NCBI RefSeq assembly: GCF_900258045.1
Contig: NZ_OGVD01000003.1
Location: forward strand, 310,001-374,000
Reading direction: 5' to 3'
From: Sphingorhabdus sp. EL138
GTDB lineage: Bacteria > Pseudomonadota > Alphaproteobacteria > Sphingomonadales > Sphingomonadaceae
Length of the DNA: 64,000 nt
Under the pieces are notes generated by a model that did no database searches, was not told where the DNA came from, and saw only the letters and a program-made list of their open reading frames with translations. The translations under genes and the position numbers were made by a program. The first letter of the stretch is position 1. Every line of letters starts with the position of its first letter. Below, in pieces: positions 49,827 through 64,000 of the stretch.

Positions 49827-51362
49827 TTATTTGGCGGTTTTCCTGCGACCCTTGCCTGCCGTAGCGGCACGCGAAGTCAGGCGCTTTTTCGGTTTTTTTG
49901 CTGCAGCCTTTTTCGCTTTGGGTTTTTTGGGCGCGGCCGCACTCGCTTTCTTCGCCGCCGCCAACAAAGCCTTGAAGCTCTTCTCAGCGAAATCAACATA
50001 GGCTGCAGGGTCCGGAAGCATCTCACGGTCCGCTGTAATCGTCAGCATGACCTCTCCATGATAGCTGGTGACGATATGGAAAACACCCATACCGTCCGTC
50101 GGCAATCCCATGCCAAAGCTGCGTTTCAGCTCGGCCCCGGCAAAATACATCGAGACCGGCGGTCCCGGTACATTGGTAACAACCGTATTCATCTGAGGCG
50201 CAACGGTCTGCCCCAGCCCCATGCGCGCAGCCAGCTTCGTAGCCGCTGCTGTCAGGCCCGCTGGCATTGCACCGCTTAACTCCATCAACGTCCGCGCACC
50301 GACCGCCTCGACCATATGCTTGGAACGGTTTGTCTCCTTCGCAACGAATTCCAACCGTTTTGCAGCGTCAGCAATATGAGTGCCGAGACCGACCGTCATC
50401 ATCGACACCTGGTTCCCGCCAGCCGCTTCGCCATTGTCATCGCGCACCGAAATTGGCGCGCCCGCTTTTAAGGTATTATCCGGCAGCTCGCCTTTGCTTT
50501 CCAGATAGGCGCGCATCGTGCCGCCAACCACGGTCAACATAACATCATTGACCGTTACACCGGGAAAGGCGGCGCGGATTGCCTTGATATCAGAGAGCGG
50601 AAATATCTTACCGTCAAATACACGGTGCGGTGTCAATCGGTCACCAAAGCGGGTCTTGGGAATGCCGGTTGCGGCGTCCTTTTGCTGCTTATTCTCTCTC
50701 GCGAAATCAAACATCCGCTTCGGTACGGGAAGAAGCTTGCCTAGATTTTGCAAACCGCGCACCGGATTCGCGATATTATTGACCTGCGCCCGCACCAGCA
50801 GGTTCAGATCATTCGGCTTCGTTTCTGGTCGCCATTGCCTGTCCCATTTGCGCGGTTTCATTTTGGCATCAAGATCATGCAACGCCAAAGTCATTTGCAG
50901 TCCGGATTGCCCGTCCACCGCCGCATGGTGGAATTTGTGCACTAGGGCGAAGCTGCCCTTGGGAATGCCCTCTACATTGTCGAGACCTTCAATGACGGTG
51001 AACTCCCATAAAGGGCGATCCATATCCAACGGGCGCGCATAAATCCGTGCCGCCTGAATACAAAGCTGTCGCCAGTCGCCCGGTTGCGGCAAGGCAATAT
51101 GACGGACATGATATTCGAGATCGAAATTGTCATCCTCAATCCAGTAGGGATGATCCAGATCGAGCGGCACTCGCACCAGTTTCTGACGGAAAATCCGCGC
51201 GCCATCCAGGCGACCTTCAATATAGCGCAAAATGTCCTTGAACCCGACCTTGCCGCCGGGAGCGGTGGAGGGGTCATAGATAAGCAGCTGGCCGATATGC
51301 ATCGGCGTATTGCGTGTTTCCGTATAGGCAAACATCGCATCAAGTGCGCCTAATTGTTCCAT
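49827..51362 (-). CDS. Wax ester synthase/diacylglycerol acyltransferase with basic tail
   Basis: Bifunctional WS/DGAT acyltransferase of 511 residues, which esterifies acyl-CoA with fatty alcohol or diacylglycerol to make storage lipids. The catalytic HHxxxDG is in VHKFHHAAVDGQSG (near residue 130), PLWEFTVIEGL precedes it, and the NPLWR-type and ND motifs follow (TVNDVMLTVVGGTMRAYL, NTVVTNVPGPP). The C-terminal 50 residues are Lys/Ala/Pro-rich (KKPKAKKAAAKKPKKR), histone H1- or AlgP-like, which is not part of the usual enzyme. ATG 51362 gives the family start MEQLGALDAMF; 51368 is an alternative. Confidence 0.9.
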   Translation of the reverse strand: MEQLGALDAMFAYTETRNTPMHIGQLLIYDPSTAPGGKVGFKDILRYIEGRLDGARIFRQKLVRVPLDLDHPYWIEDDNFDLEYHVRHIALPQPGDWRQLCIQAARIYARPLDMDRPLWEFTVIEGLDNVEGIPKGSFALVHKFHHAAVDGQSGLQMTLALHDLDAKMKPRKWDRQWRPETKPNDLNLLVRAQVNNIANPVRGLQNLGKLLPVPKRMFDFARENKQQKDAATGIPKTRFGDRLTPHRVFDGKIFPLSDIKAIRAAFPGVTVNDVMLTVVGGTMRAYLESKGELPDNTLKAGAPISVRDDNGEAAGGNQVSMMTVGLGTHIADAAKRLEFVAKETNRSKHMVEAVGARTLMELSGAMPAGLTAAATKLAARMGLGQTVAPQMNTVVTNVPGPPVSMYFAGAELKRSFGMGLPTDGMGVFHIVTSYHGEVMLTITADREMLPDPAAYVDFAEKSFKALLAAAKKASAAAPKKPKAKKAAAKKPKKRLTSRAATAGKGRRKTAK

Positions 51363-51457: not shown

Positions 51458-53608
51458 CTAATTGGTCAGGGAGGCTTCACTTCTGAACAGGCGTGTCACT
51501 TTATCGAGCAAGCCGCCGGCGACCGATCGACCGGTCGCAGCAATTTCAACACTACCCGGGGTCAGCTGCAACGCCTCACCATCCTCATAGGTTTTTTTCG
51601 AGGCGATCAGGCGAACGCGGTAAAGCGCCGTTCGCGGGCGCAAGATATTCTCGTCCTTGTCGGATGCGATGGGACCGCCATTGACGGAGGCCAATATCGG
51701 TTGATCGATCCTTTCAACCGCGTTTGTTGATTTTTCGACCAGCTTGGCCGCCCGGGATGCCTGTACCGGATCATCCGGAACAAAGCGGCCGCGCGCGTCC
51801 TTGGAAATGCGCCAGATATCGTCTTCGCTAACATAGGCCTGAATATCATAGTCATCGGATGTGACGACATAGGCAATGGCTTCCGCCCCGCCGAGCCAGC
51901 GCCCGCTGTGAATATCCGGCGACAGGTCGGTCACAATCCCGGCAATTGGTGCGCGCAGGACGAGCCGTTCGCTGCGCAGTTCGAGGCCGCTGAGCTGATC
52001 CTGTTCCTGCTTGAGTTCCCGTTCGAGAACCATGCGGTTGGACAGATCAATCTCGTCCGCCGCACCGCGACCAAATTGCAGTTGCAGATTGGCTATTCTC
52101 ACCTTGGTGGCCGCGATGGATTGTTCCAGCTCGGGAGCCGAGAGTTGAACCAGTGGCGCGCCGGCCGCAACTCTCTGGCCATTCTCGACAAACAGCTTTT
52201 CCACCTTGCCCGGGTCACCAGCGACAATCGGAGACGCCCCAATCGGGGTGAGCACGGCTGGCGCGCTGATATGGCGATCGAGTGGCAACAGGCAAAGCAG
52301 CAGGGCGACGCCGCCGCCAATCAACAGCAACCGCGTCCGCGACGTGGCCAAAATCCGGTCCTTCATACTTGCCCAGACCTTGAATTCCGAGACCACAGGC
52401 CGGGCTATGAACACGGCAATCTCAACAACAAACAGGATTACCCCGAGCAATTTAAAAAACAGCGTGTAGACCAACAGCGCGATACCGATGAACAGGAACA
52501 GGCGGTAGATCCAGGTCATCCACGCATAAACGATCATCCCGCGGCGCAATCGGCCGGGTACCTGTTCGGGTGCGTCATCACCCAAAGCGAATAGCATCTC
52601 ACGCAGCCGCCAGCGGCCCAGTGCGAAGGCGCGCGGTTGCAGATTGGGCACACCGAGCCAGTCGGACAGGACATAATAGCCGTCAAAGCGCATGAACGGA
52701 TTGAGATTGATCGCCAGACTCATCACCCAGCTGGTGGTCGCAAGAATGAAGGCGACACTGCGCAGCATGCCATCTGGCAACAGCACCCAGGCCATGGTCG
52801 CAAGCCCGGCGATCATTAGCTCGACCGTGACACCGGCACAATCAATCATCAGCCGCTGCTTGCGCGAGGTCAGCCGCCAGGCGCCGGATGTATCGGTATA
52901 GAGGACCGGCATCATCACCAGAAAGCTGACGCCCATGCTCGGCACACGGCAGCCAAAGCGCGTGGCCGTATAGGCATGGCCCAGCTCATGGAGGATCTTG
53001 ATGACAAACAGGCCGAGACCATAAGCGATCAGCCCTTGCCAGCTGAAGAAATAGAGGAAGGATGCGAGGAAGCTGTCCCATTGCCGCGAAACAAGAAACA
53101 GACCGGTGAGCGCCAGCAAAGCAAAGAAGGTCAGGGCCGGATAGGACCAGAGTGGCGCAACCTTGTCGATCGTCCGTTCCAGAAAAGCCGCCGGCTTGAC
53201 GATCGGGATGCGGATAAAGAGATAATTGTCCAGCGTCCATTTCCACCACGCCTTTTTGGCCGTTTCCCGCTGTTCCGTGAAGCTGGCAACGGCGTCGCCC
53301 ATTGGCGTTACGGTGAGGCTGTTCGACAGGGAAAAGTCGACCACTTGACCAAAGGCGGTGTTGATTTCTTCCTCGTCCAGCCCTTCTGCGACCAGATCAT
53401 CATTGACCTTCGCCAGATCGCCGGATGCCCAGCGGGAAAGGATGCGATATTCAATCTGGCCCAGTTGAAAGAACAGGTGCCGCACCGGATCAAACAGGGT
53501 CCAGCTGGGTGCGCCTGTAACTAGGGCTGCGCCCGGCTCAATCCGCAGTTCTTGCCGCAGTGGAGGCAACAAGGGCCGTTCCGGTTCGACAGGCGCAGCA
53601 GCAGTCAT
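51458..53608 (-). CDS. PqqD-like / M50 metalloprotease / HlyD adaptor fusion
   Basis: A 716-residue multidomain membrane protein. Residues about 17-100 look like a PqqD-type winged helix (PSWTLFDPVRHLFFQLGQIE, then ILSRWASGD). Residues about 150-405 are a site-2-type (M50) intramembrane protease with HELGH at 207-211 and the second zinc/catalytic motif NPFMRFDGYY at 303-312. A further membrane helix near 420-437 leads to a lipoyl/HlyD adaptor (about 440-620) with a beta-barrel tail. Start ATG 53608 overlaps the stop of the preceding gene (ATGA). Last of the export-cluster genes after the giant repeat protein. Probably a secretion or maturation component in the inner membrane; the role is inferred. 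Confidence 0.85.
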   Translation of the reverse strand: MTAAAPVEPERPLLPPLRQELRIEPGAALVTGAPSWTLFDPVRHLFFQLGQIEYRILSRWASGDLAKVNDDLVAEGLDEEEINTAFGQVVDFSLSNSLTVTPMGDAVASFTEQRETAKKAWWKWTLDNYLFIRIPIVKPAAFLERTIDKVAPLWSYPALTFFALLALTGLFLVSRQWDSFLASFLYFFSWQGLIAYGLGLFVIKILHELGHAYTATRFGCRVPSMGVSFLVMMPVLYTDTSGAWRLTSRKQRLMIDCAGVTVELMIAGLATMAWVLLPDGMLRSVAFILATTSWVMSLAINLNPFMRFDGYYVLSDWLGVPNLQPRAFALGRWRLREMLFALGDDAPEQVPGRLRRGMIVYAWMTWIYRLFLFIGIALLVYTLFFKLLGVILFVVEIAVFIARPVVSEFKVWASMKDRILATSRTRLLLIGGGVALLLCLLPLDRHISAPAVLTPIGASPIVAGDPGKVEKLFVENGQRVAAGAPLVQLSAPELEQSIAATKVRIANLQLQFGRGAADEIDLSNRMVLERELKQEQDQLSGLELRSERLVLRAPIAGIVTDLSPDIHSGRWLGGAEAIAYVVTSDDYDIQAYVSEDDIWRISKDARGRFVPDDPVQASRAAKLVEKSTNAVERIDQPILASVNGGPIASDKDENILRPRTALYRVRLIASKKTYEDGEALQLTPGSVEIAATGRSVAGGLLDKVTRLFRSEASLTN

Positions 53609-54999
53609 AGGCCGATAGTTTGTCTGAAGCTCGCTATCGGACGCTTGAGCAGCGAATAGATGAGCGGCACCCACTCGCCATAAAGCTTGGCCGTGCCGCG
53701 CGAGCCGATGCGCGGATTGCCCGACGTCGGCTTGGCCGTCACGGCGAAAGCCAATATGCCTTCCGCCGTCTGCCGCGCCTGATAGCTGGCATGTTCCACC
53801 TTGCCTTCAATCGCCCAGAGCGGCTGCGCATCGAGCCAGACTTTCACGCGCGATCCGCGTTCCAGCGCCATCTGCTCGGCCGCGGGCAAATCGATGCGCA
53901 GCGCGATCTGACCCGGATCGGCGACCTGCAATATCGGATCGCCGACATTGACGGCCCGCCCTTCCCAGTCGCGGCGGTCACTATAGATTGCCATCCCGCC
54001 ACGTGGAGCCTTGATCTGCGACAACCCCATGATATCATTGGCGAAATTATAGTCCGCCTGGGCCAGTTCATATTCTGCGCGCAGGGTGGCAATCTCGCGG
54101 GTCTCGTCATCCTCGCCAAAGGCGGTGCTGGTGGACCGGTCCACCCGCGCCTTGGCCACGGCCAGTTTTTCCTGCGCCAGTTTCAGTTCGTTGGACAGCT
54201 TCACATCATCAAAGGACACGAGCAGCGCGCCTTCTTCCACCGCCGCATTGGGCGCCACATGGATACGTGAAATCACGCCTGAAAAGGGAGCCGCAACCAT
54301 GAATGGACGCTCGGCAACGACCTCCACGGGTGCAAGCGCCGTCATCCGGACCGGAAAGAGCGCAATGACCAACAGCGCGACCAATATGCCGATTTTCTCC
54401 TTGCGGCCAAAGCGGCCGATGCGTTTGACCGGCTTGTCTCCGGTCAATGCCCGCCAGCTATGCGACACCGTCTCAGACAATCGCGTCAACCGATAACCCT
54501 CGCCTTCGCGAAACGGCGCTTCGCGCATGACCAATAGTCCGCCAAACACCTTTTCCTCGCTGTCCAACAGGGGTTGCCAGCGGCATTCGTTATAAGGATA
54601 TTCCGTCAACGCGGCGTCATCACTCATCGCACCCAGGGTGAAATCATGTGGCCGGTCCAGCCCATCATTTTTCGCCAGTTTCGCAATCAGCTTTTCCATC
54701 GCCTGAATCAGCGGCGCGTTGCGATCGACCGATGATATGCTGGAGGCGCAGACGATATGGAAATCGTCACCAATGCGCGGCTGGCGGGCAATGAACATCT
54801 GCTCATAAGGCAAGATCCGCCGCATTTCATTGGCGACATGATAATGCAGCTCCGCCACGCCCGGCTGGCGACGCACTTCTGCTTCAAACTGCAGCAGGCT
54901 GGCGAGCATGTTTGCATCGCCGGACAGCGGTGCTGCTCCCGTGGCTACGGGTAATATCGCAATCGGTGCAGGGTCGGAATCAGGAGGGCTGGCGGCCAT
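53605..54999 (-). CDS. GAF-like / HlyD periplasmic adaptor hybrid
   Basis: A 464-residue protein. The N-terminal 35-185 region resembles a cytosolic GAF-type sensor domain (LHYHVANEMRRIL, FGGLLVMREAPFREGEGYRLTRLSETV). A single membrane helix at 201-219 follows, then a biotinyl-lipoyl/HlyD adaptor (VVAERPFMVAAPFSGVISRIHV, coiled coil about 262-320, then IKAPRGGMAIYSDRR and a barrel domain). This puts a potential sensor inside and an adaptor outside the membrane. It overlaps the M50-HlyD gene by four bases. Between it and the next upstream gene is a 129-bp gap with a double-hairpin repeat. Confidence 0.82.
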   Translation of the reverse strand: MAASPPDSDPAPIAILPVATGAAPLSGDANMLASLLQFEAEVRRQPGVAELHYHVANEMRRILPYEQMFIARQPRIGDDFHIVCASSISSVDRNAPLIQAMEKLIAKLAKNDGLDRPHDFTLGAMSDDAALTEYPYNECRWQPLLDSEEKVFGGLLVMREAPFREGEGYRLTRLSETVSHSWRALTGDKPVKRIGRFGRKEKIGILVALLVIALFPVRMTALAPVEVVAERPFMVAAPFSGVISRIHVAPNAAVEEGALLVSFDDVKLSNELKLAQEKLAVAKARVDRSTSTAFGEDDETREIATLRAEYELAQADYNFANDIMGLSQIKAPRGGMAIYSDRRDWEGRAVNVGDPILQVADPGQIALRIDLPAAEQMALERGSRVKVWLDAQPLWAIEGKVEHASYQARQTAEGILAFAVTAKPTSGNPRIGSRGTAKLYGEWVPLIYSLLKRPIASFRQTIGL

Positions 55000-55045
55000 C
55001 GGTTTTCCTGTCCTTCAGCATTTTATGCTCCCATTTTCAAATTTG

Positions 55046-55122
55046 GTGCTCCGCACTTGATGCGGAGCCTAGGGTGGCTGTCACGCCCGTCTAACCTGGG
55101 CTCCGCATCAAGTGCGGAGCAC
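55046..55122. repeat. 77-bp double-hairpin repeat
   Basis: Two arms, 55046-55069 and 55099-55122, are perfect inverted repeats of each other over 24 bp, extending to 28 bp with one mismatch. Each arm is itself a hairpin, CTCCGCA-cttga-TGCGGAG. This REP/BIME-like layout interrupts the export operon between the adaptor and the GAF-HlyD genes. Confidence 0.8.
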
Positions 55123-55128
55123 GTTGCT

Positions 55129-56082
55129 CTATTCCTCAATCTGTTGTTTCGATGTTTTTTGCGGCGCTGTTTGTCTGGTAGCATTCGAAGCAACCTTAGC
55201 ATCCGGCTTCACAAACACGCCAGTACCGCTCATCCCCGGCAGGACAAGGCTTTCGGTTTTGTCGACATTGCCTGTCACACGGATAGTCTTGCTCACCGGA
55301 TCGACCGATGCTCCCAGCCGCGTAATCTGGCCGGTCACGTCAGCGCCGGTTTCGTCAATCTTGAACGTGAAGTCGGCTCCGGGCCGCAGCCATGTCAGCC
55401 AGTTGCTCGGTACGATCAGCTCAACCTCTAAATCACCGCCGCTCTGGATCGTTAGCAGCGGCTGCCCGCTCGCCGCAATCTCACCGCGACCTGCAATTTC
55501 TTCAACAACGGTGCCGGAAAAGGGCGCATAGACTGCGCAGTCGGTCAGATTGGCCTTGATCGCATTGGCCTCGGCATTGGCCTTGCCCAGATTGGCTTTG
55601 GCTACGGCGACTTCATTCTTACCGATCGCTTCATATTGGTCGAGCTCGACGTTGGTTTTATACGTCACATTATAGGCATTGGCCGCTGCCTGCGCGGCTC
55701 TCAGCTCTGCCCGGATCGCCGAACAATCAAATTGCGCGAGCAGAGCGCCTTTGCGGAAACTTTGTCCCTTGCCAAAGGGCATGGACGTAATCCGCGCGGT
55801 CATTCGCGATGCAACGGTTGATTCTTGCTTGGGCTTGATCACCCCGCGCACGTCGGGGTCAGACTTCGGTTCCGGCTTTTGCGCCTGTGCCTCCGTCGTT
55901 TCTGTCGCTTTTTCTTCCGCGGCGCTCATTGCCGCTTCATTGCTTGACCAATTGGGGCCATCACCGCTGCTGGCAATGCCCACACCTATGATCGCGGCCA
56001 GCGCAATACCGCCACCCCATAGCCATGGAGCCTTGGATTTTTCCTCTATGTCCGGAATCCCGTCTCCGGTTTCGTCGCTCAT
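55129..56082 (-). CDS. HlyD/RND-type periplasmic adaptor protein
   Basis: A 317-residue membrane-fusion protein. One N-terminal transmembrane helix (about 20-40, PWLWGGGIALAAIIGVGIAS), a linker rich in Glu/Lys, then a split lipoyl domain (IKPKQESTVASRMTARITSM and YAPFSGTVVEEIAGRGEIAASGQPLLTIQ), a hairpin helical region (residues 125-180) and a beta-barrel (VELIVPSNWLTWLRPG). It joins an inner-membrane exporter to TolC. It follows the TolC gene by nine bases. The C-terminus is short. Confidence 0.88.
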   Translation of the reverse strand: MSDETGDGIPDIEEKSKAPWLWGGGIALAAIIGVGIASSGDGPNWSSNEAAMSAAEEKATETTEAQAQKPEPKSDPDVRGVIKPKQESTVASRMTARITSMPFGKGQSFRKGALLAQFDCSAIRAELRAAQAAANAYNVTYKTNVELDQYEAIGKNEVAVAKANLGKANAEANAIKANLTDCAVYAPFSGTVVEEIAGRGEIAASGQPLLTIQSGGDLEVELIVPSNWLTWLRPGADFTFKIDETGADVTGQITRLGASVDPVSKTIRVTGNVDKTESLVLPGMSGTGVFVKPDAKVASNATRQTAPQKTSKQQIEE

Positions 56083-56091
56083 CAGGGCTTC

Positions 56092-57585
56092 CTATTGATC
56101 CAGCTTCATCGCCGCTTCACGTTCCTGCCACAGGCTGGTCAAGGATGTGGTCAAGGTTCCGACATCTTCTCGCCCGGTCAGGTCCGGCGCGAAATCATCT
56201 ATGCCCATGGATGCAAAGAGATTGGCGTAGGCATTTTGCGCCTCCGCATAGGCTATATCATATTTCACCTCGGCCACGAGAGTGTTCATTTCTTCGCGTA
56301 GCAAGGTTTGCTGGCTCATCGCACCCGCCTTGTGGCCAGCGCGGATCTGGTAGAGGATCTTGTCCTGCACCCGGTGCTGATGTTCGGCGGTCTGCAATTC
56401 TTCCTGCAAATGGCCAAAGCGCGCCCGCGATACGTGGACCTGTGTCATCACCGCCATGGTCAGCGCCAGCTCGCGTTGCCGGAGCAGGTCATCCTGCGCC
56501 CGCACCGCCTTTTTCTTGGGGCCGAGTTTGAACAGGTTAAGCACGTTCCAGCTCGCCTGCGCGCCATATTGGAACCAGTTATTGTTGAACAGGAAGTCAT
56601 TGGAATCGACATTCACGCCCAATATGCCGCGGAAACTGGGGAGAGCCGATAAGAGTGTCGCGTCCAGTTCCTTGGCATTGATCCGTTGACGATAGCTGAC
56701 TTCGCGTAGCTCGGCGCGGTTTTTCAGCGCGGTCATCATCATGTCCTCGCCCGAATATTGGACCGCAGGCAAAGTCTCTGTCCGGTCGGGCAGGACCAGC
56801 GCAAATTCAGTGCCGGGGCGCAGGTTCATCAGCGCAGCAAGCTGTGCTTTCGCGACCACCAGTTCGCGCTGCAGTTTGCGGATTTCCGCCTGAATCTGGA
56901 CCAGTTCCCGCTGGTAGGTCAGCGCGGTGAGCGGCGCCGACAGGCGGCGTTCGGCCAGTCTTTCGCTATTGTCGAGCGTGGTGCTGACATTGCCTTCCAG
57001 CTCTTTCAGCTTGGTCAAAAGTCGCTCGGCACTGACAGCACGCCAATAAGACGTGCGGACATCCTCGATAATCCGGTTGGCCACCTTGCGCCGACGTTCC
57101 TGCGAAATCAGGAATCCATCTGCCTTTTGCTGCGCACGAACATAGGATAGGCCAAAGTCGAGCACGTCCCAGCTCAGCGACAGATCAGCGGTAAAAATAT
57201 CGCGCTCGGCCGAGGTGGAGGGTTCCAGCGATTGCCGCCGGGTAATCAGCGAGAGCGAACTGGCACCAGAAAAATTATTCCGTCCGGCATAGCCCGCATT
57301 GGCGACCAGTTGCGGCAACATGTCATAGCGTGACACATTCAGCTCCCGCATCTTGAGCGCCGCTTCCATCAGCTCGACCTTGTAATCGAGATTATATTTG
57401 AGCGCCCGGGCCATCGCCTCATAAAGATTGATCGGTGCGGTCACCGGTTCCTGATCAGCATCCACCGCAACGATATTTTCCCGCGCCGTGGTATCAATTT
57501 GTGATGGTGTGAGCGGTTTGGGATTCACCGCGCAACCAGCCAGCAAGGCCAGTGCCGAAATACTCAGAGTGTGTTTCATGTGCAT
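56092..57585 (-). CDS. TolC family outer-membrane lipoprotein
   Basis: Outer-membrane channel of 497 residues. A lipoprotein signal with lipobox LAGC places the acylated Cys at residue 18 (17 if the second Met is used). The rest has the two tandem OEP repeats of long alpha-helices (RELNVSRYDMLPQLVANAGY, SYWRAVSAERLLTKLKELEGN, then KAQLAALMNLRPGTEF and KKKAVRAQDDLLRQRELALTMAVMTQVH). By family it forms the exit duct for type I secretion or efflux. It starts 15 bases after the giant repeat gene ends, on the same strand. Confidence 0.9.
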   Translation of the reverse strand: MHMKHTLSISALALLAGCAVNPKPLTPSQIDTTARENIVAVDADQEPVTAPINLYEAMARALKYNLDYKVELMEAALKMRELNVSRYDMLPQLVANAGYAGRNNFSGASSLSLITRRQSLEPSTSAERDIFTADLSLSWDVLDFGLSYVRAQQKADGFLISQERRRKVANRIIEDVRTSYWRAVSAERLLTKLKELEGNVSTTLDNSERLAERRLSAPLTALTYQRELVQIQAEIRKLQRELVVAKAQLAALMNLRPGTEFALVLPDRTETLPAVQYSGEDMMMTALKNRAELREVSYRQRINAKELDATLLSALPSFRGILGVNVDSNDFLFNNNWFQYGAQASWNVLNLFKLGPKKKAVRAQDDLLRQRELALTMAVMTQVHVSRARFGHLQEELQTAEHQHRVQDKILYQIRAGHKAGAMSQQTLLREEMNTLVAEVKYDIAYAEAQNAYANLFASMGIDDFAPDLTGREDVGTLTTSLTSLWQEREAAMKLDQ

Positions 57586-57600
57586 ATTCTGCTTCCCTAT

Positions 57601-60600
57601 CTAGGCCTTGAACGCAGCGAGAAGCTGCGCTGTTTCATCTGCGACACTGGCGTCTGCCATTGCCATGGCACTGCCCAGGGGAGCAGCACCGTTCATGTTC
57701 CGAGAAAGCTCGCGCTCCTCATCAATCTGGATTTCACCGGTCGCCCCTTGAACGATAACCGGAATTTCAATGACCTGACCATCTGCGCGGATCGCCCGCA
57801 CGATCAGGCGAACGGTTTCCGCGTCCACTGGTCGTTCGATAATCGCAAGACCGCGGGCATCCATACGGATCCAGCCAGGCAGCGGGCTGCCGTCGCGGGT
57901 GCGTAGCTGATATTCGACGATGCGCGGATCGCTCTCGGCCCCGATATCGCGGACTTCCATGTAGATGACCCGGTCACGAACAATCGATTCAATCATCACC
58001 TGGTCGCTGCCGGTCGATAGCTGGCGCACCGAGAAGCCGGTCAGGCCTTCGACAAGGAAATCGCCAAAGCGCGGATCGAACAGGCGGTCGGTGCCAAAAC
58101 GCAGGTCTCGGATATGGTCAAGCTGGCGGACAAGATCATTAATCGGATTACCATCGACATCCAGCTCGCCCATTCCATTCAACCAGCGCAGGCCGTTGAC
58201 TGCAGTGAGAAGCGGCCGATCGCCACCCAAGTCTGGCGTGTTATTAAGCGACCGGAAACTGTTCACCGTGTCGTCGATGATCAGCGGCGTCGTGATAAAT
58301 TCGGTGATCGGATCCAGACTTGTATTAAGCTGTTCGCTATCGGGAAAACCGATGCCGGGATTGCCGAGCAATTCATTCACATTGGCATTGGCCTGCGTGA
58401 CGATAACGGTCGCAGTGGATTCCACAAATCCGCCCTGCCCATCGCTGACAATATAAGTGATCGTGGCGACACCTTGAAATTCTGGGTCAGCAAAATGGGA
58501 AATTGTGCCATCCGCGTTGATCACAACGGTTCCGATATCGACCTTGGCGGTGAAAACGCTCAGTGGATCACCATCAGGATCGCTGCCATTAGCCAGCACA
58601 TCGATAATCGTTTCTGCGCCACCAATGCCGAAGACTTCTTCATCGCCATCGACCGGCACTTCATTGACGTTGCGGACGGTGACCGCGACGGTTGCCGTGG
58701 ACGTACCGCCGTTGCCATCACTGATCGTATAAGTGATTGTGTCCGTACCAAAAAAGTCGAGATTTGGTGTATAAGTGATCGTACCGTCCGGGTTGATCAC
58801 TACGGCACCGTTAGCGGCGCTGACATTGGTTATTGTCAGCGGATCGCCGTCCAGATCAACATCATTGGCCAGCACCGGAATAACCACAGGCCGCTCTTCA
58901 TCGGTATCGGCAATATCATTGGCCGCCACCGGTGGATCGTTGACCGGGCTGACCGTGACGGTAATTGTCGCAGTGGTAAAGCCGCCATTGCCGTCACTGA
59001 CCTGATAGGTGATCACATCGGTGCCGTTGAAATTCGGATCGGGCGTATAGGTGATTGTGCCGTCGGGATTGATCGTTACCGTACCATTGGGCGCGTTTGC
59101 ACTGGAGATGACCAGCGGATCGCCATCAACATCCGTCGCATTATCCAGCGGCGACAAATTGATCGGCGTGTCTTCCGGCGTGGCGGCAACATCCGGTGTC
59201 ACTGCAGGCGGATCGTTGATGGGTGTTACATCGACCGTCACCGTGGCGGTCGATGTTCCGCCATTGCCGTCACTGACTGTATAGGTGATCGTTGTCGGCC
59301 CATTGAAATCGGGATCGGGCGTAAAGGTAACCGTACCGTCTGGATTGATAACCACCGTACCATTGGGCGAGGTTGCTTCGGTCACGGTTAAAGGATCGCC
59401 GTCAGCATCGGTATCATTACCCAGAACCGGTATCGTAACCGGCGCATCTTCCGGCGTTGAAACCGTATCATCAACAGCAACCGGAATATCATTGACCGGA
59501 TTGACGGTGACGGTTGCGGTGGTCGTGGCAAAACCGCCATTGCCGTCAGAGATAGTGTAGGTGATCGTATCGACACCGTTGAAATTCGGGTCCGGAGTAT
59601 AGGTGACCGTGCCATCGGCATTGATCACCACTGTGCCGTTAGGCGCGCTGGCCGCTGTAACGGTCAAAGGATCGCCATCAACATCATTGTCATTGCCGAG
59701 GACGGAAACAGTCACCGGCGTGTCTTCGTTCGTCTGGGCAACATCCGGTGTTGCAACCGGCGGATCATTGACCGGATCAACGGTCAGCGTCACAGTGGCC
59801 GTCGCGGTGCCGCCATTGCCGTCACTGATTGTATAGGTCACCGTCGTGGTGCCATTGAAATCCGGATCAGGCGTGAAGGTCACCGTGCCATCGGGATTGA
59901 TCGTCACCTGACCATCAGGCGAGGTCGCACCGGTCACGATCAGCGGATCGCCATCGACATCACTGTCATTGCTGAGCACGTTGAGCGTGATTGGCGTGTC
60001 TTCCGGCGTCGTCGCCACATCATCGACAGCGACCGGCGCGTCATTGACCGGATTGACGGTCACGTTGACAATTGCGGTGTCCGTGCCGCCCTGACCATCG
60101 CTGATCACATAGGTGATGGTATCGTTGCCGTTAAAGTCCGGATCAGGCGTATAGGTTACCGTACCATCGGCGTTGATCACGACAGTACCGTTGGGCGCGC
60201 TTGCGCTGGCAACGATCAGCGGATCACCGTCCACATCGCTGTCATTGGCGAGCACCGGAATCGTAACCGGCACCTCTTCATCGGTCACTGTTGCATCATC
60301 AACCGCAACCGGTGGATCATTGACCGCGCTCACGGTGACAGTCACCGTCGCGGTCGAGGTGCCGCCATTGCCGTCGCTGATCGTATAGGTGATCGTGTCG
60401 GTGCCGTTGAAATCCTGATCAGGGGTATAGTCAATTGTACCGTCAGGCTGAATCACGACCACGCCATTGGCCGCGCTCGCCGTGGTGACGGTCAGCATAT
60501 CGCCATCGGGATCATTGTCATTGGCAAGGACCGGAATGTTCACCGGCAAGTCTTCAGACGTTGAGGCACTGTCATTCACAGCCACGGGCGGCGGGTTGGT

Positions 60601-63600
60601 GATCGTCCAGGTGAAGTCCTGATCGACCGTACCGCCATTGCCATCATCGGCGGTAATCGTGACGGTATAGACACCGCCATTTGCCTGGCTCGCGCTGCTA
60701 TCGATTGTGCCGGTGATCAGACCATTGGCGTCAATCGACAAACCGGCAGGCAGGCCGCTGGCGGTAAAGGTCAGACCATCACCGTCAACATCAGAGAAGT
60801 TGGCTGCCACCGATGTGGATATTATTGCACTATCGACATCGTTCCGGGGTGCAATCGGGCTTGCGACCGGGTCGTCATTGACCGCACCAACATTGATTTC
60901 GACCGTCGCCGTGGATGTTCCGCCATTGCCGTCACTGATTGTATAAGTGATCGTATCAGGGCCGTTATAATCCGCATCGGGCGCATAGTTCAGTGTGCCA
61001 TCGGGATTGATGGTCACTGTTCCATTGCCGGCCGTGGCCAGAGTCACGGTCAGCGTATCGCCATCGGGATCATTATCATTGGAGAGTACGTCAATATCCA
61101 GCGGCGTGTCTTCGGTCACCGCGATCGGGCCATCATCACTGGCCACTGGCGGTGGGTTGGTGACCGTCCAGCTGAAGGTGCTGGAGACTGTGCCGCCATT
61201 GCTGTCATCGGCCGTGATGGTGACGCTATAAATACCGTCGCCATTGGGGCCACCCTGCGAAGCCGAGGGATCAATCGTACCGGTTATGTTGCCCGCGGCG
61301 TCAATGGACAGGCCGGGCGGCAGGCCGGTCTCGGTAAAGGTCAGCATATCGCCGTCGAGATCATCAAAGCTGCCACTGACATCAATCGCGATCACATCTG
61401 CATCGGCATTGCCCAATGCCGCCAGCGGCGTCACCGTCGGATCATCATTTTCGGCACCCACTGTCACCGTCACGGTGGAAGTGGAGCTTCCGCCCTGACC
61501 ATCACTGATCACATAGGTGATAGTATCGGTGCCATTGAAATTAGCGTCCGGCGTGTAGGTCAGTGTGCCGTCCGCATTGATCACCACTGCGCCATTGTCC
61601 GCGCTGGCCGTCGTCACAGTCAGCGTGTCGCCATCCGGATCATTGTCATTGGCCAGAACATCAATCGGCGCGGTCGGCGTGTCTTCGGTCGTTGAAGCCG
61701 TGTCCGTATTGGCCGTTGGTCCGGGGTTGGTTATCGTCCAGATAAAGCTTTGTGTCGTTTCCAGATCGCCGTCGGAGGCGGTCACTTCCACCTGATAGAC
61801 ACCGCCATTCACCTGACTGGCGTTCGGATCGATTGTGCCCGTAATCTCTCCGGTCATCATGTCGATAGACAGGCCGGCGGGCAGATTGGACGCGCTGAAG
61901 GTCAGCGTGTCGCCTTCAGGGTCGCTGAACAGTGACCCGAAATCGACGCTGACGGCATCGCCATCCTGACTGTCACGGTCCGGAATGATCGTACCATCCG
62001 GCGCATCATTGACCGGATCAATGACGATAGTCGCAACGGCCGTTGCAAACTCACCATTGGCATCCTCAATCGTATAGGTGACGGTCGCAGTGCCGTTAAA
62101 ATCCGGGTCAGGCGTAAAGTCGATTGTGCCGTCCGCCAATATAACCGCCGTGCCGTTGGTTGCAATGGCCGAGACAATCACAATTGGCGTACCGGGATCG
62201 CCATCCGGATCAGTATCATTAGCCAGCACATCGAGATTGATCAGCGTGTCTTCCGTGCCGACAAAGTTGTCATTTATCGCCCGGGGCGGTTCGTTGGTGA
62301 TGGTCCATGTGAAGGTCGTGCTGACATTCAGCCCGGCCGCATCCGTTGCGGTCACGGTAACCGTATATTCCCCGTTCGGCACATCCGAAGAGGCTGTCGC
62401 ACCGGTCGTTCCCGTCACCAGACCGGTTGCCGGGTCAAAACTCAGGCCGGTCGGCAAGCCGGTGACATTGTAAGTCAGCGTTGCATCATCGGCATCGCTA
62501 AAGGCCGATCCCAAGGGGACCGTGATTGCTTCGTTGTTCGAATCAAACAGGTCGGGCAGACCGACTGTTTCCGGTGCATCATTCACCGGTGTCACGGTCA
62601 CTTCAACGGTTGCGGTAGCCGTGCCACCATTGCCGTCGCTGATCGTATAGACAATGGTATCGGTGCCATTGAAATCCGGATCAGGCTGGTAAGTGAGCGT
62701 GCCATCGGCTTCGATCACGATAGTGCCATTGCTGCTGTCGGCCGAAATGACGGTCAGTGCATCACCATCAGGATCGCTATCATTGGTCAGCACCGCTATG
62801 TTGACCGATGTATCTTCGGGGGTGGTTGCTGTGTCATTGGTGGCAACGGGCGGCGGGTTGTTCACGGTCCAGGTGAAGACGGAATCCACCGTGCCGCCGT
62901 TGCCATCGTCCGCGGTAACGGTGACCGTATAGACGCCGCCATTCACCTGACTGGCATCCGGATCAATCGTACCCGTGATCAGACCGTTGGCGTCAATCGA
63001 CAGGCCTGCGGGCAAGCCGGTCGCGGTGAAGGTTAGTGTATCACCGTCAAGATCTTCAAAGCTACCGCTGACATCAACCGACACCATATCGGCATCGTCA
63101 TTGGTCTGGTTGTTGAGCGGCGGGTCCGCTGTCGGTGCGTCATTCACTGGCGTTACCGTCACTTCGACCGTTGCGGTGGAGGTGCCGCCATTGCCGTCGC
63201 TAATCTGATAGGTGATGATATCCGTGCCGTTGAAATTGGTCGCCGGCGTATAAATCAATGTGCCATCCGGATTGATCACGACCGTGCCATTGGGCGCGGT
63301 CGCGCTGACGACAGTCAGGCTATCGCCATCGGGATCATTGTCATTGGCCAGCACCGCAATCGGCGCGCTCGGCGTATCTTCATCGGTGGTGGCTGCGTCG
63401 TTCACAGCTGTCGGAGCCGGGTTGGTGATCGTCCAGGTGAAACTGCCTTCGACAGTGCCGCCATTGCCATCATCCGCGGTGATCGTGACCGTATAGACGC
63501 CGCCATTGACCTGGCTGGCCTGGTTATCAATCGTGCCGGTGACCACCCCATTGGCATCAATCGACAATCCAGCAGGCAGACCGGTTGCAGTGAAGGTCAG

Positions 63601-64000
63601 TGTATCACCATCAAGATCGCTGAACTTGTCGCTGATATCGACCGAGATGACATCGGCATCTTCGTTATTGAGGTCTGCAATCGGAATATCAACTTCCGGC
63701 GCATCATTGACCGGCGCAACAGTCACTTCAACCGTCGCGGTAGAGGTGCCACCATTGCCATCGCTGATCGTATAGGTGATCGTGTCGGTGCCGTTGAAAT
63801 CCTGATTGGGCGTATAGGTGACCGTGCCGTCAGGGTTGATCACAACCGTACCATTGGGCGCGCTTGCCACTGTAACCGTGAGATCATCTCCATCGGGGTC
63901 ATTATCATTGGCCAGAACATCGATGATCACCGGCGTGTCTTCGTCGGTGGCTGCCGTGTCATCGGTTGCTGTCGGCGCCGGATTGGTCACGGTGTAGGTG
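57601..64000 (-). CDS. Giant cadherin/Ig-repeat surface protein, N-terminus outside window
   Basis: The frame stays open to the right edge, so at least 2,132 residues of the C-terminal part are seen. From the visible N-terminal side there are six alternating pairs (about 190 residues each) of a cadherin-like tandem-95-type module (EDTP...VLANDNDPDGD...NGTVVINPDGTVTYTP...NDAP) and a dystroglycan/He_PIG Ig-like module (FSDLDGD...GLPAGLSIDANG). Eight cadherin-type modules (about 92 residues) in tandem follow. The Asp-rich DPDGD loops suggest calcium binding. The last 260 or so residues (57601-58380) are unique and end in a mixed hydrophobic/charged tail (DETAQLLAAFKA). No RTX nonapeptides or LPXTG are seen. 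It is probably a secreted or surface adhesin. Confidence 0.88.
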   Translation of the reverse strand, partial: TYTVTNPAPTATDDTAATDEDTPVIIDVLANDNDPDGDDLTVTVASAPNGTVVINPDGTVTYTPNQDFNGTDTITYTISDGNGGTSTATVEVTVAPVNDAPEVDIPIADLNNEDADVISVDISDKFSDLDGDTLTFTATGLPAGLSIDANGVVTGTIDNQASQVNGGVYTVTITADDGNGGTVEGSFTWTITNPAPTAVNDAATTDEDTPSAPIAVLANDNDPDGDSLTVVSATAPNGTVVINPDGTLIYTPATNFNGTDIITYQISDGNGGTSTATVEVTVTPVNDAPTADPPLNNQTNDDADMVSVDVSGSFEDLDGDTLTFTATGLPAGLSIDANGLITGTIDPDASQVNGGVYTVTVTADDGNGGTVDSVFTWTVNNPPPVATNDTATTPEDTSVNIAVLTNDSDPDGDALTVISADSSNGTIVIEADGTLTYQPDPDFNGTDTIVYTISDGNGGTATATVEVTVTPVNDAPETVGLPDLFDSNNEAITVPLGSAFSDADDATLTYNVTGLPTGLSFDPATGLVTGTTGATASSDVPNGEYTVTVTATDAAGLNVSTTFTWTITNEPPRAINDNFVGTEDTLINLDVLANDTDPDGDPGTPIVIVSAIATNGTAVILADGTIDFTPDPDFNGTATVTYTIEDANGEFATAVATIVIDPVNDAPDGTIIPDRDSQDGDAVSVDFGSLFSDPEGDTLTFSASNLPAGLSIDMMTGEITGTIDPNASQVNGGVYQVEVTASDGDLETTQSFIWTITNPGPTANTDTASTTEDTPTAPIDVLANDNDPDGDTLTVTTASADNGAVVINADGTLTYTPDANFNGTDTITYVISDGQGGSSTSTVTVTVGAENDDPTVTPLAALGNADADVIAIDVSGSFDDLDGDMLTFTETGLPPGLSIDAAGNITGTIDPSASQGGPNGDGIYSVTITADDSNGGTVSSTFSWTVTNPPPVASDDGPIAVTEDTPLDIDVLSNDNDPDGDTLTVTLATAGNGTVTINPDGTLNYAPDADYNGPDTITYTISDGNGGTSTATVEINVGAVNDDPVASPIAPRNDVDSAIISTSVAANFSDVDGDGLTFTASGLPAGLSIDANGLITGTIDSSASQANGGVYTVTITADDGNGGTVDQDFTWTITNPPPVAVNDSASTSEDLPVNIPVLANDNDPDGDMLTVTTASAANGVVVIQPDGTIDYTPDQDFNGTDTITYTISDGNGGTSTATVTVTVSAVNDPPVAVDDATVTDEEVPVTIPVLANDSDVDGDPLIVASASAPNGTVVINADGTVTYTPDPDFNGNDTITYVISDGQGGTDTAIVNVTVNPVNDAPVAVDDVATTPEDTPITLNVLSNDSDVDGDPLIVTGATSPDGQVTINPDGTVTFTPDPDFNGTTTVTYTISDGNGGTATATVTLTVDPVNDPPVATPDVAQTNEDTPVTVSVLGNDNDVDGDPLTVTAASAPNGTVVINADGTVTYTPDPNFNGVDTITYTISDGNGGFATTTATVTVNPVNDIPVAVDDTVSTPEDAPVTIPVLGNDTDADGDPLTVTEATSPNGTVVINPDGTVTFTPDPDFNGPTTITYTVSDGNGGTSTATVTVDVTPINDPPAVTPDVAATPEDTPINLSPLDNATDVDGDPLVISSANAPNGTVTINPDGTITYTPDPNFNGTDVITYQVSDGNGGFTTATITVTVSPVNDPPVAANDIADTDEERPVVIPVLANDVDLDGDPLTITNVSAANGAVVINPDGTITYTPNLDFFGTDTITYTISDGNGGTSTATVAVTVRNVNEVPVDGDEEVFGIGGAETIIDVLANGSDPDGDPLSVFTAKVDIGTVVINADGTISHFADPEFQGVATITYIVSDGQGGFVESTATVIVTQANANVNELLGNPGIGFPDSEQLNTSLDPITEFITTPLIIDDTVNSFRSLNNTPDLGGDRPLLTAVNGLRWLNGMGELDVDGNPINDLVRQLDHIRDLRFGTDRLFDPRFGDFLVEGLTGFSVRQLSTGSDQVMIESIVRDRVIYMEVRDIGAESDPRIVEYQLRTRDGSPLPGWIRMDARGLAIIERPVDAETVRLIVRAIRADGQVIEIPVIVQGATGEIQIDEERELSRNMNGAAPLGSAMAMADASVADETAQLLAAFKA
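58380..64000. repeat. Coding tandem repeats of the giant surface protein
   Basis: Imperfect tandem repeats at the DNA level, about 280 bp per unit from 58380 to about 60600 and about 570 bp per composite unit from there to the right edge. They correspond to protein modules, not to a separate element. Because of them, assembly of this locus from short reads is prone to collapse or expansion. Confidence 0.8.

Follow-up and report, generated by a model that had tools for sequence, protein, structure and literature searches.

A giant LEPR-leader protein and its candidate ABC-free export cassette with an M50-HlyD fusion in Sphingorhabdus sp. EL138

The stretch of Sphingorhabdus sp. EL138 DNA analysed here (64,000 nucleotides, hereafter the window; C2:310001-374000 in a genome of 3.66 Mb and 4 contigs) ends in a minus-strand series of five genes, which encode a giant repeat protein, a TolC-family outer-membrane factor and three HlyD-type adaptors, one of them fused to a PqqD-like domain and an M50 intramembrane metalloprotease and another to a GAF-like domain. 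The locus raises the question of how a protein of this size might be exported with no ATP-binding cassette (ABC) ATPase encoded beside its channel and adaptors. An earlier note on this DNA had proposed a dedicated export or display cassette for the giant, with the M50-HlyD fusion in place of an ABC pump, and the core of the proposal stands, as neither an ABC ATPase in the operon nor a tie to efflux pumps instead of giants was found. We consider that the locus encodes a dedicated exporter together with its giant substrate, whose leader would be bound by the PqqD-like domain and clipped by the M50 site, with Sec and SecA providing the power and HlyD and TolC proteins the conduit. We put the probability of this reading at about one in two. 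Gene content, order, conservation and the link to LEPR giants are observed here; the binding and clipping of the leader, the source of energy and the export itself are inferred. All domain and fold assignments rest on sequence profiles.

A conserved cassette beside a giant protein

Across the 34 kb from window position 51000 to window-equivalent position 85000, a six-frame search revealed no ABC signature motif and only two lone Walker-A-like strings, and Pfam identified no ABC ATPase among the open reading frames (ORFs) scanned in and beyond the window. The absence of this ATPase from the series, pointed out in the earlier note, was thus found to extend past position 64000 by motif and by Pfam of the ORFs scanned. 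The locus has the HlyD-type adaptor and the TolC-type channel of type I secretion and lacks its ABC exporter ATPase. Similarly, no inner-membrane transporter of the ABC, resistance-nodulation-division (RND) or major facilitator superfamily (MFS) type accompanies an adaptor in the operons examined, near one of which an MFS gene lies on the other strand. The cassette lacks the features that define type I secretion (an ABC ATPase in the locus) and tripartite efflux pumps.

The cassette occurs in Proteobacteria and in Nitrospirota, and copies were found in a SAR11 genome and on plasmids of enterobacteria. A scan of genome contigs with an M50-HlyD alignment returned at least 584 relatives, of which the best 80 were kept, in loci of differing length from Sphingomonadales, Azospirillum, Hyphomicrobium, Nitrospirota, Pectobacterium, Pseudomonas cichorii, Klebsiella, Serratia, Pantoea, Pelagibacteraceae and others. 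Upstream of M50-HlyD in these best 80 loci we found GAF-HlyD in 76, HlyD in 67 and TolC in 61. There was room upstream in 63 of the 80, and 54 of these 63 contained all four genes, invariably in the order TolC-HlyD-GAF/HlyD-M50/HlyD (54/54); at least one cassette gene, most often TolC, was not found in the other nine. Clustering of neighbouring ORFs of 120-900 amino acids (aa) in 93 loci gave no further steady partner family. The largest cluster consisted of giant fragments (11 loci), followed by short-chain dehydrogenase/reductase (SDR) enzymes (9), a receptor with a secretin/TonB-type start (8), a sensor-like family (7), ABC ATPases (6) and DUF3467 proteins in four Nitrospira loci; the SDR, receptor, sensor and ABC families were judged to be common genes.

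Several individual copies were also recorded. Plasmid records with M50-HlyD relatives came from Escherichia (18) and Citrobacter (8), and in two of them, NZ_CP022155.1:118682-138427 (L175) and NZ_CP142906.1:267964-287728 (L176), the entire cassette lies behind a giant Ig-like protein; in the Citrobacter record of this pair, GAF-HlyD is annotated as two coding sequences (CDSs). A second M50-HlyD gene, with one internal stop codon, is present in each of the two Pseudomonas cichorii genomes (G305:C8:88372-90468 and G320:C54:4119-6215). In a Pelagibacteraceae single-cell genome (L108), HlyD, GAF-HlyD and M50-HlyD immediately follow a 2,372-aa LEPR protein, without an intervening TolC gene, and a partial TolC-like ORF precedes the giant on the other strand.

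The giant gene, which the earlier note had followed to the window edge, lies in the window as described but does not end there: it is intact, encodes 4,815 aa and starts at C2:382048 (window-equivalent 72048). Its product begins MTKQTRIPQAHLIALEPRMMFDGAA..., followed by DUF4347. The first residues, MTKQTRIPQAHLIALEPRMMFDGAAVVTAA, are matched by the NCBIfam LEPR-XLL model (LEPR-8K; cut-off 17), with 19.3 bits in the genome search and 16.8 bits by hmmscan, so that on the 4,815-aa frame the N-terminal motif lies above the NCBIfam cut-off in the former. No RTX family was among the Pfam matches of the part of the giant inside the window.

We then compared the distribution of M50-HlyD with that of LEPR proteins. 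The LEPR model has only 24 positions and matched 3 of 14 control genomes at E<=0.3 (1 above cut-off) and 7 of 14 at E<=1; given this noise, only frames of at least 1,000 aa were counted (41 in all) and shorter ones were dropped. In a sample of 289 genomes from the class to which the window belongs, M50-HlyD was found in 13 (E<=1e-20), LEPR-8K in 29 (E<=0.1) and both in 9. LEPR frames of at least 1,000 aa were present in 7 of the 13 M50-HlyD genomes as compared to 4 of the 276 others (p = 1.7e-8), and in those four the motif never fell within the first 260 residues of the frame. Inspection of 11 of the 20 M50-negative LEPR genomes showed LEALEQRGLL in one, in a 631-aa ORF of G280, and an unrelated IERRVV string in another ORF of G169. 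When the 13 genomes were combined with 32 from those behind the 80 loci, 38 of the resulting 45 M50-HlyD genomes had a LEPR-8K match, above cut-off in 35. Moreover, 32 of the 41 counted LEPR frames lay within 5 kb of an M50-HlyD gene on the same contig; eight were on a contig without M50-HlyD, and in G291 the two were placed at either end of a single record. The cassette is linked to LEPR giants, and the alternative considered in the earlier note, adaptors that go with an efflux pump and not with giants, was not seen. The shared N-terminal LEPR leader, encoded outside the DNA available to the earlier note, is the probable address of the giant.

Protease, leader and a sister clade with SecA

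The M50-HlyD protein carries the motifs of a site-2-type protease, HExxH (H229, E230, H233) and N323-P326-D331, numbered from the GTG at 53674. These six residues are identical in 37 of 37 proteins from both clades described below and invariant in 23 of 23 homologues. The window protein matched the NCBIfam model daptide_HExxH at 3.9e-44, much more strongly than Peptidase_M50, and also matched the YydH/LiaK model below its cut-off. Among the homologues, daptide_HExxH matched 23 of 23 and RiPP_HExxH_LiaK 19 of 23.

By Pfam, the two other fused domains emerged from relatives rather than from the window proteins. Pfam found no PqqD domain in the window M50-HlyD and only weak matches, below cut-off, in 3 of 23 members of the window's own clade (best E 0.13), but the one homologue scanned from the sister clade (L182:11623-13770) passed with 28.7 bits against a cut-off of 23.4. 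In profile comparison by hhalign, the N-terminal domain of M50-HlyD scored 83.7% against 15 PqqD domains from other genomes, as compared to at most 0.6% for eight control regions. The domain which the earlier note had called PqqD-like therefore resembles, by profile similarity, PqqD/RRE-type peptide-binding domains. The GAF-like assignment fared similarly: Pfam found no GAF domain in the window GAF-HlyD itself, but detected one in 4 of 22 members of its alignment, and above cut-off in both sister-clade GAF-HlyD proteins scanned.

The leader consensus from 47 distinct leaders was A-L-E-P-R-[IM]-M-F-D-[AG]-A-A-V-A-T-A, preceded by an often basic stretch. Residues L, E, R and D were fixed by the search pattern, and their conservation consequently proves nothing; in the columns free of selection, P was found in 39 of the 47, the A at -1 in 32, M in 35, A in 45 and T in 37. 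Behind the leader of the window giant, Pfam matched DUF4347 at 1.5e-16, and 22 of 51 distinct giants showed this domain in the stretches covered. The DUF4347 region directly after that leader (L009:337-771) and those of 19 relatives have an HG...YGC pattern as in caspase-type peptidases, with weak Peptidase_C80/CHAT matches. That DUF4347 might be a caspase-type (clan CD) peptidase remains a lead, because the sequences were picked by their H...C pattern. PDB entry 9QPE contains a DUF4347 protein.

A search of plasmids with the window M50-HlyD protein reached a set of distant relatives, here called type B, with the window's branch as type A. In a tree of 37 proteins the two types formed two clades (100/100 support), with 17-26% identity between them. 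The gene near type-B M50-HlyD is annotated as SecA, prepilin peptidase or DEAD/DEAH helicase. In all four cases scanned it was SecA-like by Pfam (PF07517 at 2.5e-90 to 1e-103, P-loop_SecA and SecA_PP_bind), and one copy aligned to solved SecA chains matched over most of its length. The annotated CDSs are truncated, with 638-674 aa. In 12 of 13 plasmid records this gene lay within 1.2 kb of M50-HlyD on the same strand. Among the 12 copies, TGEGKT was present in 11 (split in L179), [VI]DE[AV]DS in 12, NMAGRG in 11 and GRxxRQG in 9. Type-B operons encode a protein with the DEAD-like, preprotein-binding and P-loop domains and the Walker A motif of a SecA ATPase. The type-B order, with variations, is LEPR giant - DUF3467 - GAF-HlyD - PqqD/M50/HlyD - SecA - HlyD - TolC, and three of the giants are annotated LEPR-XLL. 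No second SecY was found among the annotated type-B neighbours examined.

The whole-genome searches also associated SecA with this clade. A single SecA match was obtained in 56 of 58 whole genomes, and extra ones occurred only in G317 and G304, the only 2 of the 45 genomes tested that have a type-B M50-HlyD. In G317, a 689-aa SecA frame stands right behind the type-B M50-HlyD, itself after a 12,632-aa LEPR frame; in G304 the extra SecA, likewise next to a type-B M50-HlyD, is split in two frames.

A small DUF3467 gene is found beside type-B cassettes (L201:12705-12998, L194:4135-4446), and a look-alike beside four type-A Nitrospira cassettes (L086, L087, L105, L112). A PDB search lent no support to the idea that DUF3467 might be SecB-like, and no solved relative was found.

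A possible mechanism and its alternatives

In the mechanism that we favour, the leader (a basic stretch, then A-L-E-P-R-x-M-F-D-[A/G]-A-A-V-A-T-A) would serve as the address of the giant and would be bound on the cytoplasmic side by the PqqD-like domain of M50-HlyD, after which the M50 site would clip it in or at the membrane. PqqD-type domains bind leaders of ribosomally synthesized and post-translationally modified peptides (RiPPs), and daptide and epipeptide maturation proteases, to which the M50 domain is related by NCBIfam, are thought to clip leaders. The polypeptide would then cross the inner membrane via Sec, powered by SecA: the housekeeping SecA in type A, and the dedicated truncated SecA of the operon in type B. 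The three HlyD-type adaptors and TolC would form the periplasmic and outer-membrane conduit, perhaps placing the giant at the cell surface, and the GAF domain might relay a cytoplasmic small-molecule signal to this conduit. Recognition and cleavage of the leader are the simplest account of a PqqD-like domain, an M50 protease and a conserved leader taken together. Likewise, passage through periplasm and outer membrane is the simplest account of HlyD and TolC, and a Sec-powered inner-membrane step that of the type-B SecA. The sister clade points to SecA as a likely energy source. The suggestion in the earlier note that the protease replaces or assists the pump was right in part: M50-HlyD stands at the pump's place, but a protease cannot be the motor. 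The weakest step is the use of housekeeping SecA in type A, since the leader departs from ordinary signal peptides and an ABC protein with housekeeping duties might act instead. Whether all this amounts to a separate Gram-negative secretion pathway, Sec-powered and ABC-free, with a LEPR leader recognised and cleaved by PqqD-M50-HlyD, a GAF-gated HlyD/TolC conduit and two clades, one with its own minimal SecA, is a more tentative matter, to which we give slightly less than an even chance.

A number of findings weigh against this mechanism. No export, cleavage or localisation data were found for any cassette member. The window M50-HlyD matches daptide_HExxH below that model's cut-off. Seven of the 45 M50-HlyD genomes had no LEPR match, although the loci of two of them (G302/L079 and G318/L115) contain LESRIMFDGA or LEKRLMLDAS motifs by pattern. 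The median best 12-residue hydrophobicity mean of the leaders was 1.45 (range 1.0-2.3, n=48), as compared to 2.38 for TolC signal peptides (range 0.65-3.3, n=47), and charged residues are conserved within the leader; because of this lower average hydrophobicity and these charges, the leader is not a normal Sec signal. With respect to SecA, the type-B cassette of Thalassospira marina lacks an adjoining SecA gene, and no paralogue was found in any type-A genome searched that lacks a type-B copy. The window genome has one SecA match, a 920-aa frame at C1:774421, and no dedicated SecA was found for type A. A MacB-like or other housekeeping ABC ATPase could possibly take part. In addition, in Serratia marcescens (L104:13776-17215), a complete type I pair, consisting of a HlyD-sized ORF and a 704-aa C39/ABC exporter, adjoins the cassette, about 0.8 kb beyond M50-HlyD on the opposite strand.

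The giants of many groups also share a C-terminal tail, which recalls type I signals and may be a second signal. In a leave-group-out hidden Markov model test, 11 of 15 groups had a tail that scored more than 1 bit above any internal piece; the margin was 0.5 bit in two groups (L080, L115), and of the two Klebsiella/Pantoea loci one had a tail that outscored all internal pieces. It was weak in the window's own group, where it was clear in 4 of 12 loci. Five loci (L058, L063, L065, L081, L086) were left out of this test, because shadow ORFs are fused by the ORF caller where GC content is high; of the other 42 loci, 6 belonged to no test group. A short tail, roughly h-[ST]-x-Q-[LV] ... LLxxL, ends the giants upstream of TolC (e.g., L069, L095, L102).

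The tail and the Serratia exporter are among the observations that would be expected if the giant left the cell in one step, through a type I ABC ATPase encoded elsewhere that docks on the adaptors and TolC, with the M50 protease merely trimming the leader. The window genome does encode four PF00664 proteins, one of which is type I-like: a 727-aa LapB-like exporter at C1:1362331 (581 bits to LssB; cut-off 693), far from the cassette and beside its own HlyD (L023, G000:C1:1358000-1369000). Among the 45 M50-HlyD genomes, 16 have an LssB-type and 22 a PrtD-type ATPase above cut-off. However, orthologues of the 727-aa protein, present in G321 (91% identity), G290 and G326 (81%) and G302 (57%), were not seen in the close sisters G289, G322 and G324, genomes of unstated completeness in which the best match had 34% identity and aligned only from residue 161 or later. 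These sisters keep the system, G289 with a 4,814-aa LEPR giant and G322 (L040) and G324 (L042) with the cassette and at least 2,055 aa of the giant. Similarly, Marinobacterium jannaschii (G313; completeness unstated), G070 and G109 gave type I ATPase scores only at the level reached by 13 of 14 control genomes. No such ATPase was seen in the three sisters, which keep the cassette, and the other three genomes score at control level, so that export of the giant probably does not depend on a type I ATPase. An ABC-like ORF occurred in 6 of the 80 related loci, never within the cassette. Four of the six were examined with Pfam; one, that of L104, was a type I exporter. In Amphritea (L109), the ORF encodes a 280-aa ATPase and starts 0.4 kb downstream on the cassette strand; the ORFs after it resemble, by their first residues, the substrate-binding protein and permease of a nitrate-type importer. 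We therefore regard a borrowed type I ATPase as unlikely.

A rather less likely possibility is export in two steps without a special motor, in which ordinary Sec delivers the giant to the periplasm, M50-HlyD is a protease for quality control or release, and the adaptors and TolC only pull the chain through the outer membrane, perhaps driven by its folding with calcium outside. This would fit the single SecA match of type-A genomes, the position of TolC and the adaptors next to the giants, and the cadherin/Ig repeats of the latter, as such repeats often bind calcium. However, the leader does not resemble a signal peptide, and the PqqD domain and the dedicated type-B SecA would be left unexplained. 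Lastly, it is very improbable that the M50/PqqD module matures and exports a small RiPP-like product with the giant merely its neighbour, despite the closeness of the M50 domain to RiPP proteases and the PqqD-type domain, because the steady partner is the LEPR giant and no other neighbour family occurred in more than 9 of the 93 loci among ORFs of 120-900 aa, a range outside which a shorter precursor would fall.

Gene features, known relatives and meaning

The five minus-strand genes (Table 1) lie where the earlier note had placed them, and Pfam agrees with it on TolC, HlyD, M50 and the repeats. HlyD_3/HlyD_D23 was matched in three window genes, with Peptidase_M50 in the last of these, and the TolC protein has a lipobox-like LLAGC signal at its N-terminus. 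The M50 fusion gene is real, but a start at GTG 53674 is less likely than one at ATG 53608; the latter, probably the true start, gives 716 aa and overlaps the stop codon of GAF-HlyD in an ATGA. Between the HlyD and GAF-HlyD genes (window 54999-55129), a 24-base sequence (GTGCTCCGCACTTGATGCGGAGCC) and its complement make up a perfect inverted repeat, which may be a repetitive extragenic palindromic (REP)-like element. Beyond the giant, further upstream, the genes are unrelated, e.g., a conjugation TrbI-like gene and a PadR regulator.

Table 1. Genes of the giant-protein locus (window coordinates).
Feature	Position	Strand	Evidence
Giant LEPR-leader protein, C-terminal 2,132 aa	57601..64000	-	Pfam Big_9/Cadherin/He_PIG repeats
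TolC-family outer-membrane factor, lipoprotein signal	56092..57585	-	Pfam OEP 4.4e-34
HlyD/RND-type periplasmic adaptor, hydrophobic N-terminal segment	55129..56082	-	RND_mfp 1.1e-31, above cut-off
GAF-HlyD hybrid: GAF-type domain at the N-terminus, HlyD domain after one hydrophobic segment	53605..54999	-	HlyD by Pfam; GAF from relatives
PqqD-like/M50 intramembrane metalloprotease/HlyD fusion	51458..53608	-	Peptidase_M50 and HlyD by Pfam; PqqD by hhalign

Among known systems, the type I systems of giant adhesins (LapA/LapBCE, SiiE, BapA) are alike in having a TolC-family channel, a HlyD-type adaptor and a giant Ig/cadherin-repeat substrate encoded alongside. In contrast, the window cassette has no ABC ATPase, a conserved N-terminal LEPR leader, and three adaptors, one fused to M50 and PqqD-like domains and one to GAF. 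RiPP M50 proteases (daptide HExxH, NF041824; YydH/LiaK, NF058609) and PqqD-type domains share the M50 motifs and the PqqD-like N-terminus, whereas the window protein is fused to HlyD, has a giant partner instead of a short peptide and falls below both cut-offs. Exporters of the ABC type that contain a C39 peptidase have a leader protease built into the export complex. The cassette resembles them in this respect and differs in that its protease is a membrane metalloprotease and no ABC part is present. In the accessory SecA systems of Gram-positive bacteria (SecA2/SecY2), a second SecA is linked to large proteins, as in type B only; type B, however, is Gram-negative, with a truncated SecA tied to HlyD, TolC and M50 proteins and without a second SecY in the neighbourhoods examined.

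The leader of the NCBI LEPR-XLL proteins (LEPR-8K, NF012209) is present in the window giant and in its relatives. By title and abstract, the open-access literature searched (PubMed Central, as distinct from subscription papers and preprints) contained no M50-HlyD exporter and no export system for LEPR-XLL proteins. Thus, the families of the parts and the leader named by NCBI are known, and the system as such, as predicted here, appears to be new relative to the open literature searched.

If the proposed mechanism is true, an address, a protease and an exit route would be defined for very long bacterial proteins, such as the 12,632-aa frame of one relative and the 12,918 aa of a second. The partner of a HlyD/TolC conduit could then be an intramembrane protease, joined in one clade by a dedicated SecA, and not an ABC, RND or MFS pump. 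LEPR-XLL, a motif without a stated role in the open literature searched, would become, along with DUF4347 and DUF3467, part of one testable system. M50-HlyD proteins are common, with at least 584 relatives in one genome collection and members on plasmids of Escherichia and Citrobacter.

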